Shown: positions 21,693-59,638 of the stretch, in pieces
How the letters are laid out: the number at the start of each line of letters is the position of its first letter
Numbering within the stretch: the stretch's first letter is position 1
Assembly: GCF_002216795.1 (NCBI RefSeq)
Contig: NZ_CP022316.1
Coordinates: 744,001-808,000, forward strand
DNA length: 64,000 bases
Direction: 5' to 3'
DNA from: Brachybacterium avium
GTDB lineage: Bacteria; Actinomycetota; Actinomycetes; Actinomycetales; Dermabacteraceae
Notes under the pieces: generated by a model
The model's input: the letters and a program-made list of their open reading frames with translations, nothing else
What the model was told of the DNA's origin: nothing
Database searches by the model: none
Program-made: the position numbers and the translations under genes

Positions 21693-22991
21693 TCAGCCCG
21701 CGGGCAGCAGCCAGTCGTTCGGTGCGAACAGCTCGACGTGCACCCGCTCCGGATCCGCCGCCAGCTCCTCCAGCTGCCCGCGCAGGTTCTGCAGGAAGCC
21801 CGAGGAGCCGCACAGGTAGATCTCGGCCTCCTCGGGCAGGTGCTCAGCCCGCAGGCCCATCCGCCCCGCATGCACGCGGACCCTGCCCGTGGCGGTCCCG
21901 GGGAGCTCCTCGACGGGCTGCGCCGCGGTGAACCACAGCCCGAGCCGCGCATCCGCGCCCTCGGGCAGCGCGCACACGGTCGCCACCAGCTCGCGGACAT
22001 GAGCGGAGTCGCCCGCGTCCCGGTCGGCGTGCATCACGCGCACCGGGCGGTGCGGCTGCGTGGCGGCGAGGTGGCGCAGCATCCCGAGCATCGGGGTGAG
22101 ACCGATCCCGTTCGAGATCAGCACCACCGGGTCCTCACTGCGGGTGTCCAGCGCGAGGTCGCCGTAGGGCAGGGTGACCTGCAGCCGGTCCCCCGCGCGG
22201 AGGTTCCCGTGGATCCAGGAGGAGACCTCGCCCGCCGGGTCCGGATCCGCGGCATCGACGCGACGCACCGTGATCCGCCAGCGGCCCTCTCCCGGGGCGT
22301 CCGAGAGCGAGTACTGGCGCAGCTGTCGGGCGCCGTCCGGCAGCCGCACCCCGACGGTGGTGTACTGGCCGGGCACGAAGTCCCGCAGCGGCTCGTCGCC
22401 CTCCGGGGCGCTGAGCACATAGGACGCCACGGTCGAGCTCTCCTGGGTGCGGCGGAGGACGACCGCTTCCCGGAACACGTCCCCGGGGGCGACCTCGGCC
22501 GCGGCGTAGAGGTCCTTCTCGAAGTCGATGAGGGTGGCCGCCATGTGCCAGTAGACCGCATCCCAGGCGGCGGCGATCTCGGCGGTGACGGTCTCCGCGC
22601 CGAGCACCTCGACGATCGCCGCCATCAGGTGCTCATGCACGATCCCGTACTGGTCCTCGGTGATGCCGAGGGAGGCATGCTTGTGGCCGATGCGCCCCAG
22701 CATCTCGCGCGGGCTGGGGGCGTCCGGGGTCACCAGCAGGGTGGCGTAAGTGGCGACCGAGGCGGCGAGCGCCTTCTGCTGTGCGCCCTGCGCCTGGTTG
22801 CCCCGGTTGAAGGTGTCGACCAGCAGCTCCGGATGAGCGCTGAACATCCGCTGGTAGAAGACCGGGGCGATCTCCTCGATATGCGCACCGACCAGCGGGA
22901 GGGTCGCCCTGACGGCCTCCTCGTGGACCGGTTCGAGCCGGGCCTCCGGGTCCAGCTGCGGGTGGAGGGCATAAGCGACATCGACGGTCAC
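21693..22991 (-). CDS. hmp: Flavohaemoglobin (nitric oxide dioxygenase)
   Basis: Detoxifies NO to nitrate with O2 and NAD(P)H. The 432-residue protein has the full three-domain order: globin (about 1-150; proximal haem His105 in GHKHASLGI, distal Tyr46 in FYQRMF), FAD domain (about 165-270; FVPGQYTTV and RQYSLSD) and NAD domain (about 280-end; LISNGIGLTPMLGML and LCGSSGFLQNLR). GTG start at 22991 follows AGGAAGGAA. A DUF488 gene is 134 nt upstream on the same strand. A copper nitrite-reductase-like protein at 53668 is a possible NO source in the same genome. Confidence 0.94.
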   Translation of the reverse strand: MTVDVAYALHPQLDPEARLEPVHEEAVRATLPLVGAHIEEIAPVFYQRMFSAHPELLVDTFNRGNQAQGAQQKALAASVATYATLLVTPDAPSPREMLGRIGHKHASLGITEDQYGIVHEHLMAAIVEVLGAETVTAEIAAAWDAVYWHMAATLIDFEKDLYAAAEVAPGDVFREAVVLRRTQESSTVASYVLSAPEGDEPLRDFVPGQYTTVGVRLPDGARQLRQYSLSDAPGEGRWRITVRRVDAADPDPAGEVSSWIHGNLRAGDRLQVTLPYGDLALDTRSEDPVVLISNGIGLTPMLGMLRHLAATQPHRPVRVMHADRDAGDSAHVRELVATVCALPEGADARLGLWFTAAQPVEELPGTATGRVRVHAGRMGLRAEHLPEEAEIYLCGSSGFLQNLRGQLEELAADPERVHVELFAPNDWLLPAG

Positions 22992-23125
22992 GTCGGTTCC
23001 TTCCTGATGGGGTGGAGCATCTCCGTCGCTGCCGCGACGAGCTCGCCTCAACGGTAGGGATCCCTCTCATCCCGGACCGGCGACCTTCGTCCTGACCGAT
23101 CCAGGCCCCGCACTCTGTCGTGCTG

Positions 23126-53667: not shown

Positions 53668-56331
53668 CTAGGAGGCGCGGACCTCGAGGATCCCGTGCGC
53701 TCCACGCTCCGCGTCGCGGAGCACATGGGACATGAACGGGTAGTGGCCCGGCTCGGGCGGGATCAGCTCGACGAATCCGCCCTGCGCCGGCAGCAGGCCG
53801 AGCGCCTGGGAGCCGTCACCGGAGGCCGTCTCCACGAGATAGCGGCCCTCGCTCCACACGGTGTCGAACTGGGTGCCGATCACGTGGAAGCTCAGGGGCC
53901 GCTCGGGCCCGGCGTCGAGCACCCAGAACCTCACCCGCTCCCCCGCGACGGCCTGCAGCGGGGCGTGGACGTACTGCGCCGCATAGCCGTTGAGCACCAC
54001 CAGGTCCGGTTCTCCCGCGGCGAGCGCATCACCGTCGAGCTCCTGACCCTGGGCACCGAGGTAATACTCGCCCTGGATCAGCACGTAGCTGCGGTCCACG
54101 GCGGGGAGGTCCTCCGGTTCGATGATCACCGCGCCGTACATCCCGGCCGCCACGTGGGCGGAGACCGGAGCGGTCCCGCAGTGGTACATCCAGATCCCCG
54201 CCCGTTCGGCGGTGAAGGTGTACGTCAGCGATTCGCCCGGCGCGATCGTGCGCATGGGCCCGTCGGGGGCGAGCTCGCCGGCGTGGAAGTCGATCGAGTG
54301 GCCGATGGTGCCGTCGTTGACCAGGGTCACCTCGAACACGTCCCCGACCCGGCCGTGCAGCACCGGCCCGGGGGCAGTACCGCCGAAGATCCACAGCTGC
54401 TGGGTGATGCCGGGGGCGACCTCCGCCTCCTGCTCGGCGACCTCGAGCGTGACCTTCCGGGTCACAGGACCGTTGCTCGGCGGCAGCGGCGGCAGCTCCG
54501 CGTCGTACGGGGTGAAGCCCGCTCCGGGATCGGCGGCGAGGTCGATCGCGGGCTTCTCGACGGGACCCTGCCCCCCTGCGCCGTGGGCATGCTCGGCGGG
54601 GTCGCCCTCCGCGCCGGCGACGGCCGGGGGTTCATCCGGGTCGCCGCCGGTGGTGACGATGCTCAGCACCATCCCCTGCTGGCGGTGCCCGGCGATCCCG
54701 CACCAGGCGTCGAGGTCACCGGTGACCACGCCGACGTCGAGGGTCTCGCTCTGGCCGGGGGCGAGGCGTGCGGTGCGGGTGCCGTTCTCGACGACCAGGT
54801 CGTGGGTCATCGCCGCATCGGTGTTCGTCAGCTCGATGATCAGGTGCGTGCCGGCCGGCACCTCGATGCGGTCGGGGGTGAAGCGGAGATCCGCGGCGGT
54901 CACCGCGACCGTCTGCACCGGCGCCGGCTCTTCGGTCGCGGCGGGTCCAGTGGCGATCTCCGGAGCCTGGGGTGCGCCGCCCCAGATGAGGGGGTCGACG
55001 GTGCCGATCGTGAGGATCGCGAGGGTGGCCAGCAGCAGGGCGCCGACGGCGGCGCCGGCACGTCGTCCTCCGAAGCGGGATGCTCCCACGGCCGTGGGAA
55101 CTGCAGGCGGCGCGGGCGCAGAGAGGGCACCGGGAGCGGCCTCTGCCACGGGAGCTGCGGGCAACGGGCTCGGCGCCGCCTGCGGAGTGCGGGCGGCATG
55201 CGCCAGTGGCGCGGTGCGCGGTGTCGGGCGGGTCGGTGCGCGCGTGGGGCCGAGCAGCGCGCTGCCCAGCGCCGTGGCGAGGAATGCGAGCAGCGCGAGC
55301 ACTCCGAGGACGCCGCCGAGCTGCCAGGCCGGACCCCAGCCGAGGGCGTCCCCGAGCCCGAGCCGCACTGCGAGGCTGAGCTGCAGCAGCCCCAGCGGCA
55401 CCCAGAACGCGCTGCGGTAGGGCAGGTCGATCCGCAGCACGGCAGGCAGGATCGTGGTCGCGTGCGCCATGATCATCGAGATCGTGAAGCCGAGGAACAC
55501 GGCGTGGGCGACGGCGTCGTAGGCGCCGCCCTGCGGGGTGCCGCCCAGCAGCAGCACGGCGCTGGCGATGGCGAGCCATCCGTAGCCGCACAGGATCGCT
55601 GCGGCCATGAACCGGGTCGCGCCGCGGGTGCGCAGGGTACGGCGTGCGATGTCATGGGGGATCAGCCAGAGCAGCAGGGCGCCCAGCGCGGCACCGAGCA
55701 GGATCGCGCCCGCCTCCGGGAACACCACCCCGACCAGCAGCGCCGCTACCACCCCGGCCGCGTGCACCAGCACCCGGACGCCGGCACCGGCGCCGAGCGT
55801 GATCCGGGCGAGCTCGACGCGTTCGGCGGCGATGGTGAGCACCACGAAGCCGATCAGCCAGGGCAGCACCTCAGCGAAGTCCGCTCCCCCGGCCCAGCGG
55901 ATCGCGCCACCGCAGGCCAGTCCCGCCGCGAGCAGCTCGGTGAGCACGGCCTCGTCGTACTGGCGCCGCCACAGCGGCAGATAGAGGAGGGTGAACGCGG
56001 CGGTCCCGGCGACCAGCAGGATCTTGCCCACGCTCAGCGGCACCGGGTCAGCGATCAGCGCGATCGCGCCGAGGCCCAGCAGTGCCGGGGCCAGGAAGCC
56101 GTACCAGCGGGCCAGGGCGGTCGCGCGCTCCAGCGCGATCAGGGTGCCGACGAAGCCGAGCACCAGCAGCATCCCGTGCACCACCGGCAGTCGGTCGGTG
56201 CTCACCGGAGCGGGCAGGCCGATCAGCAGCAGCGCGGCATCGAGACCGGCCAGCAGGGCGATCCCGGCCGGGAGCATCCAGCCCAGGCGCCAGGACGGCG
56301 GCCGACGGCGCGGCGGGGCGGAGCCGCTCAT
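53668..56331 (-). CDS. Membrane-anchored copper nitrite reductase-like fusion protein
   Basis: An 887-residue fusion. Residues about 1-340 form ten or more helices with conserved His (VVHGMLLVLGFVG, MIMAHATTILPAV); this part resembles NnrS-like NO-related membrane proteins, tentatively. After an Ala/Pro linker and a further helix comes a plastocyanin-like domain (about 470-570) with ligands THDLV and WCGIAGHRQQGM. The C-terminal third is a two-cupredoxin copper nitrite reductase type: TIGHSIDFHAGE, WMYHCGTAPVSAHVAAGMYGA with type-1 Cys/His/Met and type-2 His, and LSFHVIGTQFDTVW in domain two. It probably reduces nitrite to NO outside the membrane. ATG overlaps the regulator stop (ATGA). Confidence 0.8.
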   Translation of the reverse strand: MSGSAPPRRRPPSWRLGWMLPAGIALLAGLDAALLLIGLPAPVSTDRLPVVHGMLLVLGFVGTLIALERATALARWYGFLAPALLGLGAIALIADPVPLSVGKILLVAGTAAFTLLYLPLWRRQYDEAVLTELLAAGLACGGAIRWAGGADFAEVLPWLIGFVVLTIAAERVELARITLGAGAGVRVLVHAAGVVAALLVGVVFPEAGAILLGAALGALLLWLIPHDIARRTLRTRGATRFMAAAILCGYGWLAIASAVLLLGGTPQGGAYDAVAHAVFLGFTISMIMAHATTILPAVLRIDLPYRSAFWVPLGLLQLSLAVRLGLGDALGWGPAWQLGGVLGVLALLAFLATALGSALLGPTRAPTRPTPRTAPLAHAARTPQAAPSPLPAAPVAEAAPGALSAPAPPAVPTAVGASRFGGRRAGAAVGALLLATLAILTIGTVDPLIWGGAPQAPEIATGPAATEEPAPVQTVAVTAADLRFTPDRIEVPAGTHLIIELTNTDAAMTHDLVVENGTRTARLAPGQSETLDVGVVTGDLDAWCGIAGHRQQGMVLSIVTTGGDPDEPPAVAGAEGDPAEHAHGAGGQGPVEKPAIDLAADPGAGFTPYDAELPPLPPSNGPVTRKVTLEVAEQEAEVAPGITQQLWIFGGTAPGPVLHGRVGDVFEVTLVNDGTIGHSIDFHAGELAPDGPMRTIAPGESLTYTFTAERAGIWMYHCGTAPVSAHVAAGMYGAVIIEPEDLPAVDRSYVLIQGEYYLGAQGQELDGDALAAGEPDLVVLNGYAAQYVHAPLQAVAGERVRFWVLDAGPERPLSFHVIGTQFDTVWSEGRYLVETASGDGSQALGLLPAQGGFVELIPPEPGHYPFMSHVLRDAERGAHGILEVRAS

Positions 56332-57020
56332 CCTGCGTCCCGCAGGCGCAGATGGCACTGCCCGGGGGCAGCGAAGGGGAGCAGCTCGACCTCGGGCCGC
56401 GCCTCCTCGAGGCCCGGGGCGTCCTCGAGGAGGCCGGCGAGCAGGCCGCGGTGCACGGAGCAGACCACCTCGGTGTGACGGCTCGCGGCCTCCAGCAGCG
56501 GGCAGCGGTGCAGCACGATCTGCTCGCCGTCGTCCACGGGGTCGAAGCCCTGCGCGGCCATGGCGTCGGTGACCACATCGCGGGCCGTGGCGGGCGGGGA
56601 GGTCTCGGGGAGGTCTGCGGCCAGCTGCGCACCCCAGCCGCGGCCGGCCTCATGGGCGGTGGCGGCGGGGTCGGTGCTGGTGCGGGCGATGGTCCCGGCC
56701 AGCACGCCGGCGAGCGCGGCATAGGGCGAGGCGGGACCGTACCGGGTGGGACGCCAGAGCCAGGCGGGGCGACCGCGCCCGTCAGCGCTGGCGCGGGCGC
56801 GGGTGACGTGCCCGTCGGCCAGCAGCTGATCCAGGTGGCCCCGCACGGTGTTCTCGTGCAGCCCGGTAGCCCGGCCGATCGCGGCGACCGAGACCGGGGA
56901 GCGCTGCGCCTCGACCGTGCGCAGCACCTGTTCGCGCGCCCCGGAATGGCGGCGGCCTGCGGCGCTCCGACGCGGCGGCAGGCCGTTCTGCGCGGCGGGA
57001 CCTGTGCGAAAGTTTTCCAC
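56328..57020 (-). CDS. HTH regulator with SufR-like Fe-S cysteines
   Basis: A 230-residue regulator. An N-terminal winged helix (VSVAAIGRATGLHENTVRGHLDQLL, about 40-65) with GRGRPAWLW wing is followed by a C-terminal sensor domain with Cys in HRCPLLEAA, VVCSVHRGLL and GQCHLRL. This C-x(n)-C-x(n)-C pattern is that of SufR-like [4Fe-4S] regulators. It is translationally coupled to the copper enzyme and divergent from the DUF2249 gene, so it likely senses NO or redox state and controls both. GTG at 57020 is chosen because AT-rich promoter sequence lies immediately upstream. Confidence 0.78.
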   Translation of the reverse strand: MENFRTGPAAQNGLPPRRSAAGRRHSGAREQVLRTVEAQRSPVSVAAIGRATGLHENTVRGHLDQLLADGHVTRARASADGRGRPAWLWRPTRYGPASPYAALAGVLAGTIARTSTDPAATAHEAGRGWGAQLAADLPETSPPATARDVVTDAMAAQGFDPVDDGEQIVLHRCPLLEAASRHTEVVCSVHRGLLAGLLEDAPGLEEARPEVELLPFAAPGQCHLRLRDAG

Positions 57021-57045
57021 GGGATCAAAGGTAATATATTCGGCA
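57018..57045. promoter_or_regulatory. AT-rich divergent promoter of the nitrite module
   Basis: The gap between the regulator and the DUF2249 gene contains GATCAAAGGTAATATATTCG, with overlapping -10-like TAATAT (57032-57037) and the palindrome AATATATT (57033-57040). It is strikingly AT-rich for this genome and probably serves both directions; the regulator likely binds here. Confidence 0.5.
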
Positions 57046-57094
57046 GACCCGATCCGCCACGATCGTCCCGGGAGGACGACAGACAGGAGCCGAC

Positions 57095-57412
57095 ATGGCA
57101 GACATCCAGATCCAGAGCTCACGCGAGGATGCCGTCGACCAGAAGCCGTCCCAGCAGGGGTGCGCCTGCGGCGAGCATGACGAATCGCTGCCCGAGCTCG
57201 ACGTGCAGACGATCCCCCACGCGATCCGTCACGCCTCGATCTTCGGGGCGATCGAGTCGCTGGTTCCCGGGGGCGGCATGGTCATCTCGGCCACCCACGA
57301 CCCGGTGCCGCTGCTGATGCAGCTGCAGGCCAAGCATGGGGACGCCTACGCGAGCGAGTACCTCGACCAGGGCCCCGAGCGCTGGCGCATCCTGATCCGC
57401 CGCACCGCCTGA
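57095..57412 (+). CDS. DUF2249 domain protein
   Basis: A 105-residue cytoplasmic protein. After a Gln/Ser-rich start and a CACGEHDES motif (possible metal or redox Cys pair) comes the DUF2249 domain: LDVQTIPHAIRHASIFGAIE, ATHDPVPLLMQLQAKHG and GPERWRILIRR. DUF2249 proteins recur beside haem, nitrate/NO and copper genes; the function is not established. ACAGGAG precedes the ATG. Divergent from the Fe-S regulator. Confidence 0.85.
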   Translation: MADIQIQSSREDAVDQKPSQQGCACGEHDESLPELDVQTIPHAIRHASIFGAIESLVPGGGMVISATHDPVPLLMQLQAKHGDAYASEYLDQGPERWRILIRRTA

Positions 57413-57484: not shown

Positions 57485-58255
57485 TCAGTGCTGCTCGTGC
57501 CGACCCAGCGTCGTGACCGGGGTCGCACCCGGCCGTTCCCACTGAGGCAGGGGCCTGCTGGTCCCTCCCCCGGTGGGAACGCCCTCGGCATCGGTGCGCC
57601 AGCTCCAGCAGGCGTGGCGCCCGGCGGGCCAGTCGGCCGGGACCTCCTCCCAGTCCTCACCACGCCCGTAGGGCGTCATGTTCAGCAGGCCCATCGAGAA
57701 GTTCACCCGCTCGTTGCCGCGCCCGGTGGTGCGGTAGGTGAGGAAGACCCGGTCCCCGTCGCGCAGGAAGCTCACGAGGGATCCCATGTCGCCGCCGATC
57801 GGGGCGGGGGCCTCCCGCACCGAGTACCAGGGCACGCGGCGGTAGCCCATGAATGCGGTGAAGGGGTGGACCTCCTCCCAGGGACCGGTGGTGAGGATCG
57901 CCAGCGAGACCCCGTGGGCGTGCAGGTAGGTCGCATCATGCAAGTGCCAGGCGGTGGTGGTGCAGCCCTCGCACTGCCCCTGGTGCGGGGCGCCGTCGTG
58001 CCACATGTGCTGGTAGACCACGAGCTGGTCGCGCCCCTCGAACAGGGACAGGAACGGCACAGGACCGACGGGGCCGGTCACCGGCGTGCTCCCGTCGACC
58101 TCCACCATCGGCAGCCGGCGTCTCGCGGCGGCGATCGCATCGCCTTCGCGGGTGTGCGCCTTCTCCCGCACCAGCAGCTGGTCGCGGGCGGTCTGCCAGA
58201 TCCCCAGGTCGACCACGGGCGGGTATCCGGCCGGGTTCGTCGGCGCTGTGCTCAT
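57485..58255 (-). CDS. DUF899 family protein (thioredoxin-like fold)
   Basis: A 256-residue protein with family features REKAHTREGDAIAAARRRLPMVEVD near the start, LFEGRDQLVVYQHMW, a CEGCTTTAW motif where the active-site-like Cys pair sits, FMGYRRVPWYSV and DGDRVFLTYRTTGRGNE. DUF899 proteins are predicted dithiol-disulfide or peroxiredoxin-like. No operon partner within 150 nt. Confidence 0.85.
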   Translation of the reverse strand: MSTAPTNPAGYPPVVDLGIWQTARDQLLVREKAHTREGDAIAAARRRLPMVEVDGSTPVTGPVGPVPFLSLFEGRDQLVVYQHMWHDGAPHQGQCEGCTTTAWHLHDATYLHAHGVSLAILTTGPWEEVHPFTAFMGYRRVPWYSVREAPAPIGGDMGSLVSFLRDGDRVFLTYRTTGRGNERVNFSMGLLNMTPYGRGEDWEEVPADWPAGRHACWSWRTDAEGVPTGGGTSRPLPQWERPGATPVTTLGRHEQH

Positions 58256-58411: not shown

Positions 58412-59470
58412 TCAGGTGCCGCGCAGTCCGCGTACCAGCGTGACCAGCAGACCGGCGAAGACCGCGGCCCACGCGCACACGGCGACCACCAGCCCGGCCA
58501 CCCCGATCCCCTCCACCAGCGGCAGATGCTCGACATGGCCCAGCCGCAGCGAGGCGACGGCGAACATGCCCAGCGGGAACACCATCGACCACAGCGAGGG
58601 GACGTAGCGCAGCGGGACCCGGTGGATCAGGTGGCGCCACAGGCCCGCCCCGAACAGCAGGGGGTACTGCCACAGGGCGAAACACCAGAAGAGCACCACC
58701 GTCCCACCGATCAGCCCGCGCGCCGCGTCGACCATCGGCACCGGTTCCATGGCGTAGATGCCGGCCCCGGCGACGACGGCGATCGCCAGCGCTCCCATCG
58801 CCACCCAGTAGGTGGGTTCGAACTGCTGCGGCGTGATCCCGAAGTGCACGATCCGCAGGATCACCAGCACCGCGATCCCCACATAGAGGATCGTCCCCAC
58901 GGACCAGGACAGCACCGTCAGCAGCCCCAGCACGGAGGCGAAGGCGGGTGAGGCCGGCTCCAGGCCGGACAGGCCCACGGCCAGGGACTGCGAGGCGACC
59001 GACCAGACGAACCAGCTGCCGTTGGTGCGGGCCAGGATCGGCTCGCCGTCACGGGTCATCAGCACCTGCCAGGGCAGCACATACCCCAGCACGATCCAGA
59101 TCGCGGCGCCGATCCCGAGCAGCACCACGGACGCCATGCCGAGGCCCTCCGCCTGCAGGCCGACGGCCAGCACGCTGCAGGCGGCGACGACCGTGAAGTA
59201 CCCGAAGGCGCTCTCGGGGTTCCTCGCATCGCTGCGCATCCGCTCCCGGTGACGGAGCCACCGCGCGATGTACAGGACGGCCAGCACCGCAGCGGCGAGC
59301 ACCCCGAGGACCAGCAGTGCCCGCGCCACGCCCTCGGCTCCTGCGGTGCGCAGCCCGACCGACACGATCCCGGTGGCCATCACCAGCGCGAAATAGCCCG
59401 GAGCAAGCCCCGCGAGCGCTGTATCGGCGCGTGCGGCGAGCGTCGAAGAGGTCGTGGTCGAGGAGGGCAC
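58412..59470 (-). CDS. TDT/SLAC1-family transporter (tellurite resistance/C4-dicarboxylate)
   Basis: A 352-residue membrane protein with ten helices. It opens LAGLAPGYFALVMATGIVSVGL, the conserved helix-1 motif of the TehA/TDT family, and has SWFVWSVASQSLAVGL, LWQYPLLFGAGLWRHL and WSMVFPLGMFAVASLRLG. Family members export sulfite, malate or tellurite-related anions; which is unknown. Start taken as GTG 59470; an in-frame ATG at 59527 is unlikely because it adds a hydrophilic Cys-rich stretch. Confidence 0.85.
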   Translation of the reverse strand: MPSSTTTSSTLAARADTALAGLAPGYFALVMATGIVSVGLRTAGAEGVARALLVLGVLAAAVLAVLYIARWLRHRERMRSDARNPESAFGYFTVVAACSVLAVGLQAEGLGMASVVLLGIGAAIWIVLGYVLPWQVLMTRDGEPILARTNGSWFVWSVASQSLAVGLSGLEPASPAFASVLGLLTVLSWSVGTILYVGIAVLVILRIVHFGITPQQFEPTYWVAMGALAIAVVAGAGIYAMEPVPMVDAARGLIGGTVVLFWCFALWQYPLLFGAGLWRHLIHRVPLRYVPSLWSMVFPLGMFAVASLRLGHVEHLPLVEGIGVAGLVVAVCAWAAVFAGLLVTLVRGLRGT

Positions 59471-59638
59471 AGCCCTATTGTGCGACGAATACGGTGACCC
59501 GGGACATCGAGACATGCATCCCACCACTCAGACCTTGCACCCAGTGCAATTTGCCGCCTAATCTCGAGCGCGGCGGCATCGGCCGCCCGACCAGCGGGGA
59601 AGCGGCCCGGCGAGGACCGAGACGGAGAGGACCCCACC

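Follow-up and report, generated by a model that had tools for sequence, protein, structure and literature searches.

We analysed a window of 64,000 nucleotides from Brachybacterium avium (NCBI RefSeq assembly GCF_002216795.1, contig NZ_CP022316.1, positions 744,001 to 808,000 of the forward strand). It contains a module of three genes, which encode a fusion of a membrane domain with a copper nitrite reductase (NirK), a winged-helix regulator and, divergently, a DUF2249 protein. Table 1 lists them in window positions, together with neighbouring genes. The fusion gene is a single open frame of 887 codons, whose ATG start overlaps the stop codon of the regulator gene by four bases (ATGA). Pfam recognizes an N-terminal cupredoxin at aa 467-555 and a multicopper fold from aa 631. 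A positive-inside count predicts an N-in topology with 13 helices, which would place the cupredoxin and the NirK core outside. The initial annotation had described one polypeptide with about ten membrane helices, a cupredoxin and a two-domain NirK core. This composition stands, and the helix count is corrected to 12, plus a 13th helix before the cupredoxin.

Table 1. Features of the fusion locus and neighbouring genes in window positions. HCO, haem-copper oxidase; TM, membrane protein gene; dN/dS, ratio of nonsynonymous to synonymous substitution rates.
Feature	Position	Strand	Basis
Fusion gene, 887 aa (membrane domain with modelled HCO fold, linker, helix 13, cupredoxin, NirK core)	53668..56331	-	Pfam, TIGR02376, PDB relatives
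12-helix membrane domain, aa 1-349; H52 (helix II), H276 and H290 (helix X) invariant	55285..56331	-	AlphaFold2 model, Foldseek/VIA, conservation
Ala/Pro/Arg-rich linker, aa 350-425, predicted cytoplasmic, contains the fusion junction	55057..55284	-	alignment with separate TM and NirK genes, relaxed dN/dS, positive-inside count
13th membrane helix, aa 426-447, kept from NirK ('GRRAG...'), predicted to bring the chain outside	54991..55056	-	alignment; helix 438-460 of the model of a separate NirK
Cupredoxin, type 1 copper ligands H510, C544, H549, M554	54667..54933	-	PF13473 (E 8.7e-13); invariant in 72/72
Copper nitrite reductase core, aa 610-887	53671..54504	-	TIGR02376, PDB match, ligand alignment
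Winged-helix regulator, 230 aa, SufR-like, three invariant Cys	56328..57020	-	start set by the conserved promoter
Predicted leaderless promoter of the regulator	57018..57033	-	-10 box TACCTT (57033-57028), 7 nt, GTG start (57020-57018)
DUF2249 protein, 105 aa	57095..57412	+	PF10006 (E 5.7e-24, 84.2 bits; gathering score 29.5)
Flavohaemoglobin-like protein (Hmp)	21693..22994	-	globin and NAD-binding domains
DUF899 protein	57485..58255	-	
SLAC1/TehA-like anion channel	58412..59527	-	

The C-terminal part of the fusion protein carries the complete set of NirK residues, namely the type 1 copper ligands H678, C718, H726 and M731, the type 2 copper ligands H683, H717 and H869, and the catalytic residues D681 (AspCAT) and H816 (HisCAT). 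Both catalytic residues are invariant in the 72 proteins that we aligned, and so are all copper ligands, including those of the extra cupredoxin, except M731, which is replaced by leucine in nine proteins. The initial annotation had proposed an intact copper nitrite reductase fused to a membrane domain and had considered that its ligands might be lost on careful alignment; they are kept and the proposal holds. The profile TIGR02376 matches the core with an E-value of 7e-46 and 157 bits, below the NCBIfam cut-off of 296.3, which is the naming threshold of the model and not a structural feature. We count the core as NirK because of its ligands and because the long forms of Actinobacteria are placed in this family by Helen et al. 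(2016; PMC4770552), who describe them as proteins of ~900 aa with a cupredoxin and a membrane region 'of unknown function'. The closest solved relative in a search of PDB is AniA of Neisseria (E 2e-48), and other NirK proteins are among the best matches. The fusion protein is likely a membrane-tethered, exterior-facing nitrite reductase that forms nitric oxide (NO).

A structure prediction, which the initial annotation had suggested for the membrane domain, yielded a confident AlphaFold2 model from 73 homologues, with a predicted local distance difference test score (pLDDT) of 93.8. In Foldseek/VIA comparisons the model matches CcoN of the cbb3 oxidase (8smr_E) with a Z-score of 26.7 over 326 of 349 residues, at a root-mean-square deviation of 3.3. 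It also matches cNOR (Z 24.8 and 23.9) and CtaD, and identities across the HCO matches are 11-14%. Helical bundles reach up to about Z 13 by chance, and the match to the HCO fold thus stands well clear of this level. As modelled, the membrane domain has the 12-helix fold of HCO subunit I. No Pfam model matches the domain, a profile of its family found nothing useful among the PDB sequences, and hhalign of the family with three HCO sequences gave no informative alignment.

Exactly three histidines are invariant in the 73 sequences, H52 in helix II and both H276 and H290 in helix X. They remain so when five proteobacterial homologues are added, and in the resulting 78 proteins from three phyla E68, R69, E170, R171, D227 and D272 are invariant as well. 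Among the helices that bear the six metal-ligand histidines of HCOs, only II and X retain conserved histidines; in helices VI and VII, which carry the CuB/FeB ligands, the 73 sequences have none. A comparison by eye shows that the motifs 'HGxL/M' in helix II and 'HAxxxG' in helix X resemble the surroundings of what we take to be the low-spin haem ligands in CcoN and qNOR sequences. Because the invariant histidines are confined to helices II and X there is no CuB site, and we infer that the domain is neither an oxidase nor an NO reductase, lacking an oxygen- or NO-reducing site and possibly binding one haem b.

The initial annotation had called the membrane part NnrS-like, a label that its sequence does not support. 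Pfam finds no NnrS match (PF05940) in the domain, and six of the 78 homologues match weakly (best E-value 0.024). An hhalign comparison of the family with nine NnrS proteins was not significant, and a search for NnrS in the source genome gave no match.

A genome-wide scan returned more than 560 relatives of the membrane domain, of which the best 80 were kept. NirK is encoded within the stretch covered around the membrane gene in 75 of these 80 loci, which are of actinobacterial type. In 74 of the 75, the membrane protein has a gene of its own, immediately upstream of the gene for a full-length NirK (about 850-960 aa), the frame of which is broken in two cases (L043 and L088). Of these 74 loci, 67 show a 4-bp overlap between the stop codon of the first gene and the start codon of the second, which indicates that the two products were already coupled before the fusion. 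A DUF2249 gene is found within 3.5 kb in 65 loci and a regulator gene in 66. Other seeming fusions or truncations (L043, L074 and L088) turned out to be frame breaks or separate genes. One operon, on a contig of Sporosarcina beigongshangi (L027, Bacillota), is nested in Arthrobacter-type sequences in both trees and reflects recent transfer or contamination.

Full-length NirK carries a membrane region of its own, which comprises ~430 aa and is different in sequence from the product of the partner gene. We modelled this region from one locus (L013:9197-10603; pLDDT 92.7) and found a Z-score of 27.6 to CcoN over 389 residues. According to this model the membrane region of ordinary actinobacterial NirK has an HCO fold, too. 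Its invariant histidines are in helices II and VI, not II and X, and a sequence-profile search against PDB gave nothing useful. Distant homology between the two membrane families is possible (hhalign E 1.8e-4, probability 48%).

Aligned with the separate genes, the fusion consists of the neighbour's membrane domain and a linker, followed by the last helix, the cupredoxin and the core of NirK; the NirK-own membrane region is missing. The membrane domain occurs in 6 of 30 Brachybacterium genomes. Only three of them (G000, G004 and G024), which form one well-supported clade (100/98), have the direct fusion; in a further one (G013), a more distant copy of the domain accompanies a full-length NirK. 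Each half of the fusion groups with Microbacteriaceae-type operons. The identities of the two halves to their relatives are correlated (rho 0.72), and the genes that were joined were therefore neighbours in a single operon. This event, in which the separate HCO-fold membrane gene upstream of nirK would have been joined to it and the NirK-own membrane region lost, would have taken place within Brachybacterium.

Both main parts of the fusion are under purifying selection, with dN/dS values of 0.14-0.21 for the membrane domain and 0.09-0.14 for NirK, compared to about 0.5-0.6 for the linker. Since, in addition, two further genomes carry the fusion (91% and 88% identity), it cannot be put down to an assembly error, and the identical arrangement in three genomes rules out a chimera. 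The source genome has a size of 3.57 Mb and is 100% complete. The nearest named locus to its membrane domain is that of a Brachybacterium metagenome-assembled genome (93% identity).

The regulator encoded upstream of the fusion contains three cysteines with the spacing Cx13Cx34C (C180, C194 and C229, counted along the longer frame P0002), which are invariant in 56 of 56 orthologues. They agree with the iron-sulfur (Fe-S), SufR-like regulator of the initial annotation. Its helix-turn-helix region gives weak MarR/IclR-type matches (E 3e-5, below the Pfam cut-off), and a search against PDB sequences found no match. The SufR protein Rv1460 of M. tuberculosis requires C203, C216 and C244 (PMC6034842). 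It likewise has its three essential cysteines near the C-terminus, but their spacing is Cx12Cx27C, and it is linked to suf genes rather than to a nitrite reductase operon.

In 55 of 69 loci an in-frame start is preceded, at a distance of 6-8 nt, by a -10-like box, compared to 4.7% in shuffled sequence, and the most common arrangement is TACAAT or TACACT exactly 7 nt upstream of GTG. This suggests that the regulator mRNA is probably leaderless. The initial annotation had seen an AT-rich promoter shared with the DUF2249 gene and had suggested regulator binding at 57018-57045; this stretch most plausibly represents the -10 box and start codon of the regulator gene itself. An operator may overlap these elements. 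In some relatives the sequence AATTTAC-TACA-GTAAATT spans the -10 box and could be such an operator.

The divergent DUF2249 gene is present as initially described. The N-terminal CxC of its product is invariant in 69 of 69 orthologues, as are His 46 and His 68; the CxC (within 57095-57163) is a possible metal or Fe-S site. In a haloarchaeon, DUF2249 proteins are induced together with nirK and nor, and a link between this domain and the HCO superfamily has been described (PMC11218638). Proteobacterial loci pair DUF2249 with the membrane domain and have no NirK in the stretch covered, which shows that this linkage is independent of the nitrite reductase.

The source genome contains two narG genes, the products of which could supply nitrite. 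It also encodes a second NirK with its own membrane region (L003:7810-10943, minus strand; C1, about 2.8018-2.8049 Mb). Its frame is shifted by one base in a G run that lies between the parts for the membrane region and the cupredoxin, and the gene is either a pseudogene or affected by a sequencing error; in the orthologues of G004, G019, G024 and G027 the frames are open over 988-1090 aa. The Hmp-like protein noted initially at 21.7 kb is present with its globin and NAD-binding domains and could remove NO. We found no HCO-type NO reductase in the genome, since its COX1 family holds a single protein, taken as an aa3 oxidase. The genes for the DUF899 protein and the SLAC1/TehA-like channel adjoin the module. 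G027 and G024 have retained the SLAC1 gene as a neighbour, and a role in nitrite or anion transport is possible.

We read the fusion protein as a membrane-bound, exterior copper nitrite reductase in which a haem-carrying membrane domain acts as the electron donor, and we judge the chances of this reading to be even. A single low-spin haem b would be held between H52 in helix II and H276 in helix X and would take electrons from the membrane pool, presumably from quinol. From there they would pass via the tethered cupredoxin to the type 1 and on to the type 2 copper, where nitrite would be reduced to NO. The Fe-S regulator would sense NO or the redox state and control itself, the reductase and DUF2249. 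That two genes were naturally fused argues that the partner membrane protein works with NirK. The domain order fits the self-contained quinol- or copper-coupled enzyme envisaged in the initial annotation, of which the coupling itself is the presumptive part. We also propose, tentatively and as a somewhat unlikely case, that the protein is a single-chain quinol:nitrite oxidoreductase, that is, an HCO fold without the oxygen site that uses one haem to pass electrons from quinol to the cupredoxin and NirK.

Several observations weigh against a role of the membrane domain as electron donor. The third invariant histidine, H290, is unexplained by it, as are the invariant Glu, Arg and Asp residues, and no quinol site was identified in the domain. 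The Proteobacteria have the membrane protein on its own; the stretch covered around it holds no NirK, and its neighbours are DUF2249, a metal-sulfur assembly factor, NnrS, hemerythrin, Rrf2 regulators and NorR/YtfE/NOR. Moreover, G027 and G019, the sister genomes of the fusion clade, have retained the membrane gene by itself at the locus of the fusion, with no NirK there (L109 and L108): it ends right beside an ABM gene in G027, and an SDR-type gene intervenes in G019. The stand-alone proteobacterial loci and the gene retained in G019 and G027 fit a role in NO handling as well or better. The membrane domain would then be a haem module that binds, detoxifies or senses NO, set by the fusion beside the site of NO release, and NirK would receive its electrons via the cupredoxin from another copper or cytochrome donor. 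We consider this main rival possible, though less likely than the electron-donor reading. It agrees with stand-alone homologues lying among NO-stress genes, as in Cupriavidus pHG1, where one is found beside norR-ytfE-NOR, and with a source genome in which the aa3-type protein is the only COX1 member. Less easily accommodated is the company of NirK, which accompanies the membrane gene in 75 of the 80 actinobacterial-type loci, usually with overlapping genes. Furthermore, in the absence of CuB/FeB ligands the domain cannot reduce NO as NOR does.

A mere anchor, in which a degenerate oxidase fold without cofactor holds the reductase at the membrane after loss of the NirK-own region, is improbable. 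One HCO-fold region was exchanged for another by the fusion, and attachment to the membrane may have been the only thing needed; however, such an anchor would hardly need the three histidines and six charged residues that are invariant across three phyla, nor a dN/dS far below that of the linker. Finally, some multicopper oxidase models of Pfam and NCBIfam match the protein, but the laccase-type oxidase considered in the initial annotation is highly improbable, because the NirK core has no HxH trinuclear-copper motif (the sole HxH sits in a linker), its full type 2 site, AspCAT and HisCAT are invariant in the 72 proteins, and its best PDB matches are AniA and other NirK.

The electron source of actinobacterial NirK and the role of its membrane region are listed as unknown in the literature. 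In our models both the NirK-own region and the co-encoded partner have an HCO fold, which would turn a 'domain of unknown function' into something specific, with one haem, two histidines and either quinol or NO. If the fusion protein is a quinol:nitrite oxidoreductase, the two-gene form found in most actinobacteria would be a membrane complex with two oxidase-fold subunits. If the partner handles NO, the fusion would still demonstrate a physical link between the production and the handling of NO. Either way, the fusion is a natural test of the role that a widespread, unstudied membrane protein plays in the nitrogen cycle, in bacteria relevant to NO and nitrous oxide. In the open-access literature that we searched, neither the fusion nor the conserved pair of membrane protein and NirK genes is described, and the same holds for the fold of the membrane region that belongs to NirK itself. 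The membrane NirK type of ~900 aa is already known, and the fusion is a new variation on it.

Among known systems, NnrS and other 'HCO homology' proteins resemble the membrane domain as 12-helix membrane proteins of NO and denitrification loci. NnrS differs in being encoded by a separate neighbouring gene in the proteobacterial operons, and the Pfam model of NnrS does not recognize the domain of the fusion at its cut-off. Pei et al. (2014, cited in PMC11218638) are said to have described a set of 12-helix relatives of HCOs, including NnrS, most of which reportedly keep two histidines for one haem; this set may already cover one or both of the membrane regions discussed here. The three-domain NirK proteins of Hyphomicrobium denitrificans and Thermus are soluble and have no membrane domain, in which the fusion protein differs from them. 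Like it, they have an extra type 1 copper cupredoxin attached to the core (PDB 2dv6; TsNirK, PMC6400189). The NirK of the Cutibacterium/Propionibacterium acnes type (PMC4770552) likewise has a Clade II core and an extra N-terminal cupredoxin, preceded by membrane helices that span about 400 aa. That protein has its own membrane region, whereas in the fusion this region is missing and the product of the neighbouring gene is in its place. Compared to CcoN, NorB and CtaD, the membrane domain lacks the CuB/FeB ligands in helices VI and VII, is only about 11% identical and has no sequence-profile match in PDB. In the model it nevertheless shares with them the 12-helix fold over nearly its whole length, together with the conserved histidines in helices II and X, and its fusion to a cupredoxin recalls HCO subunit II.

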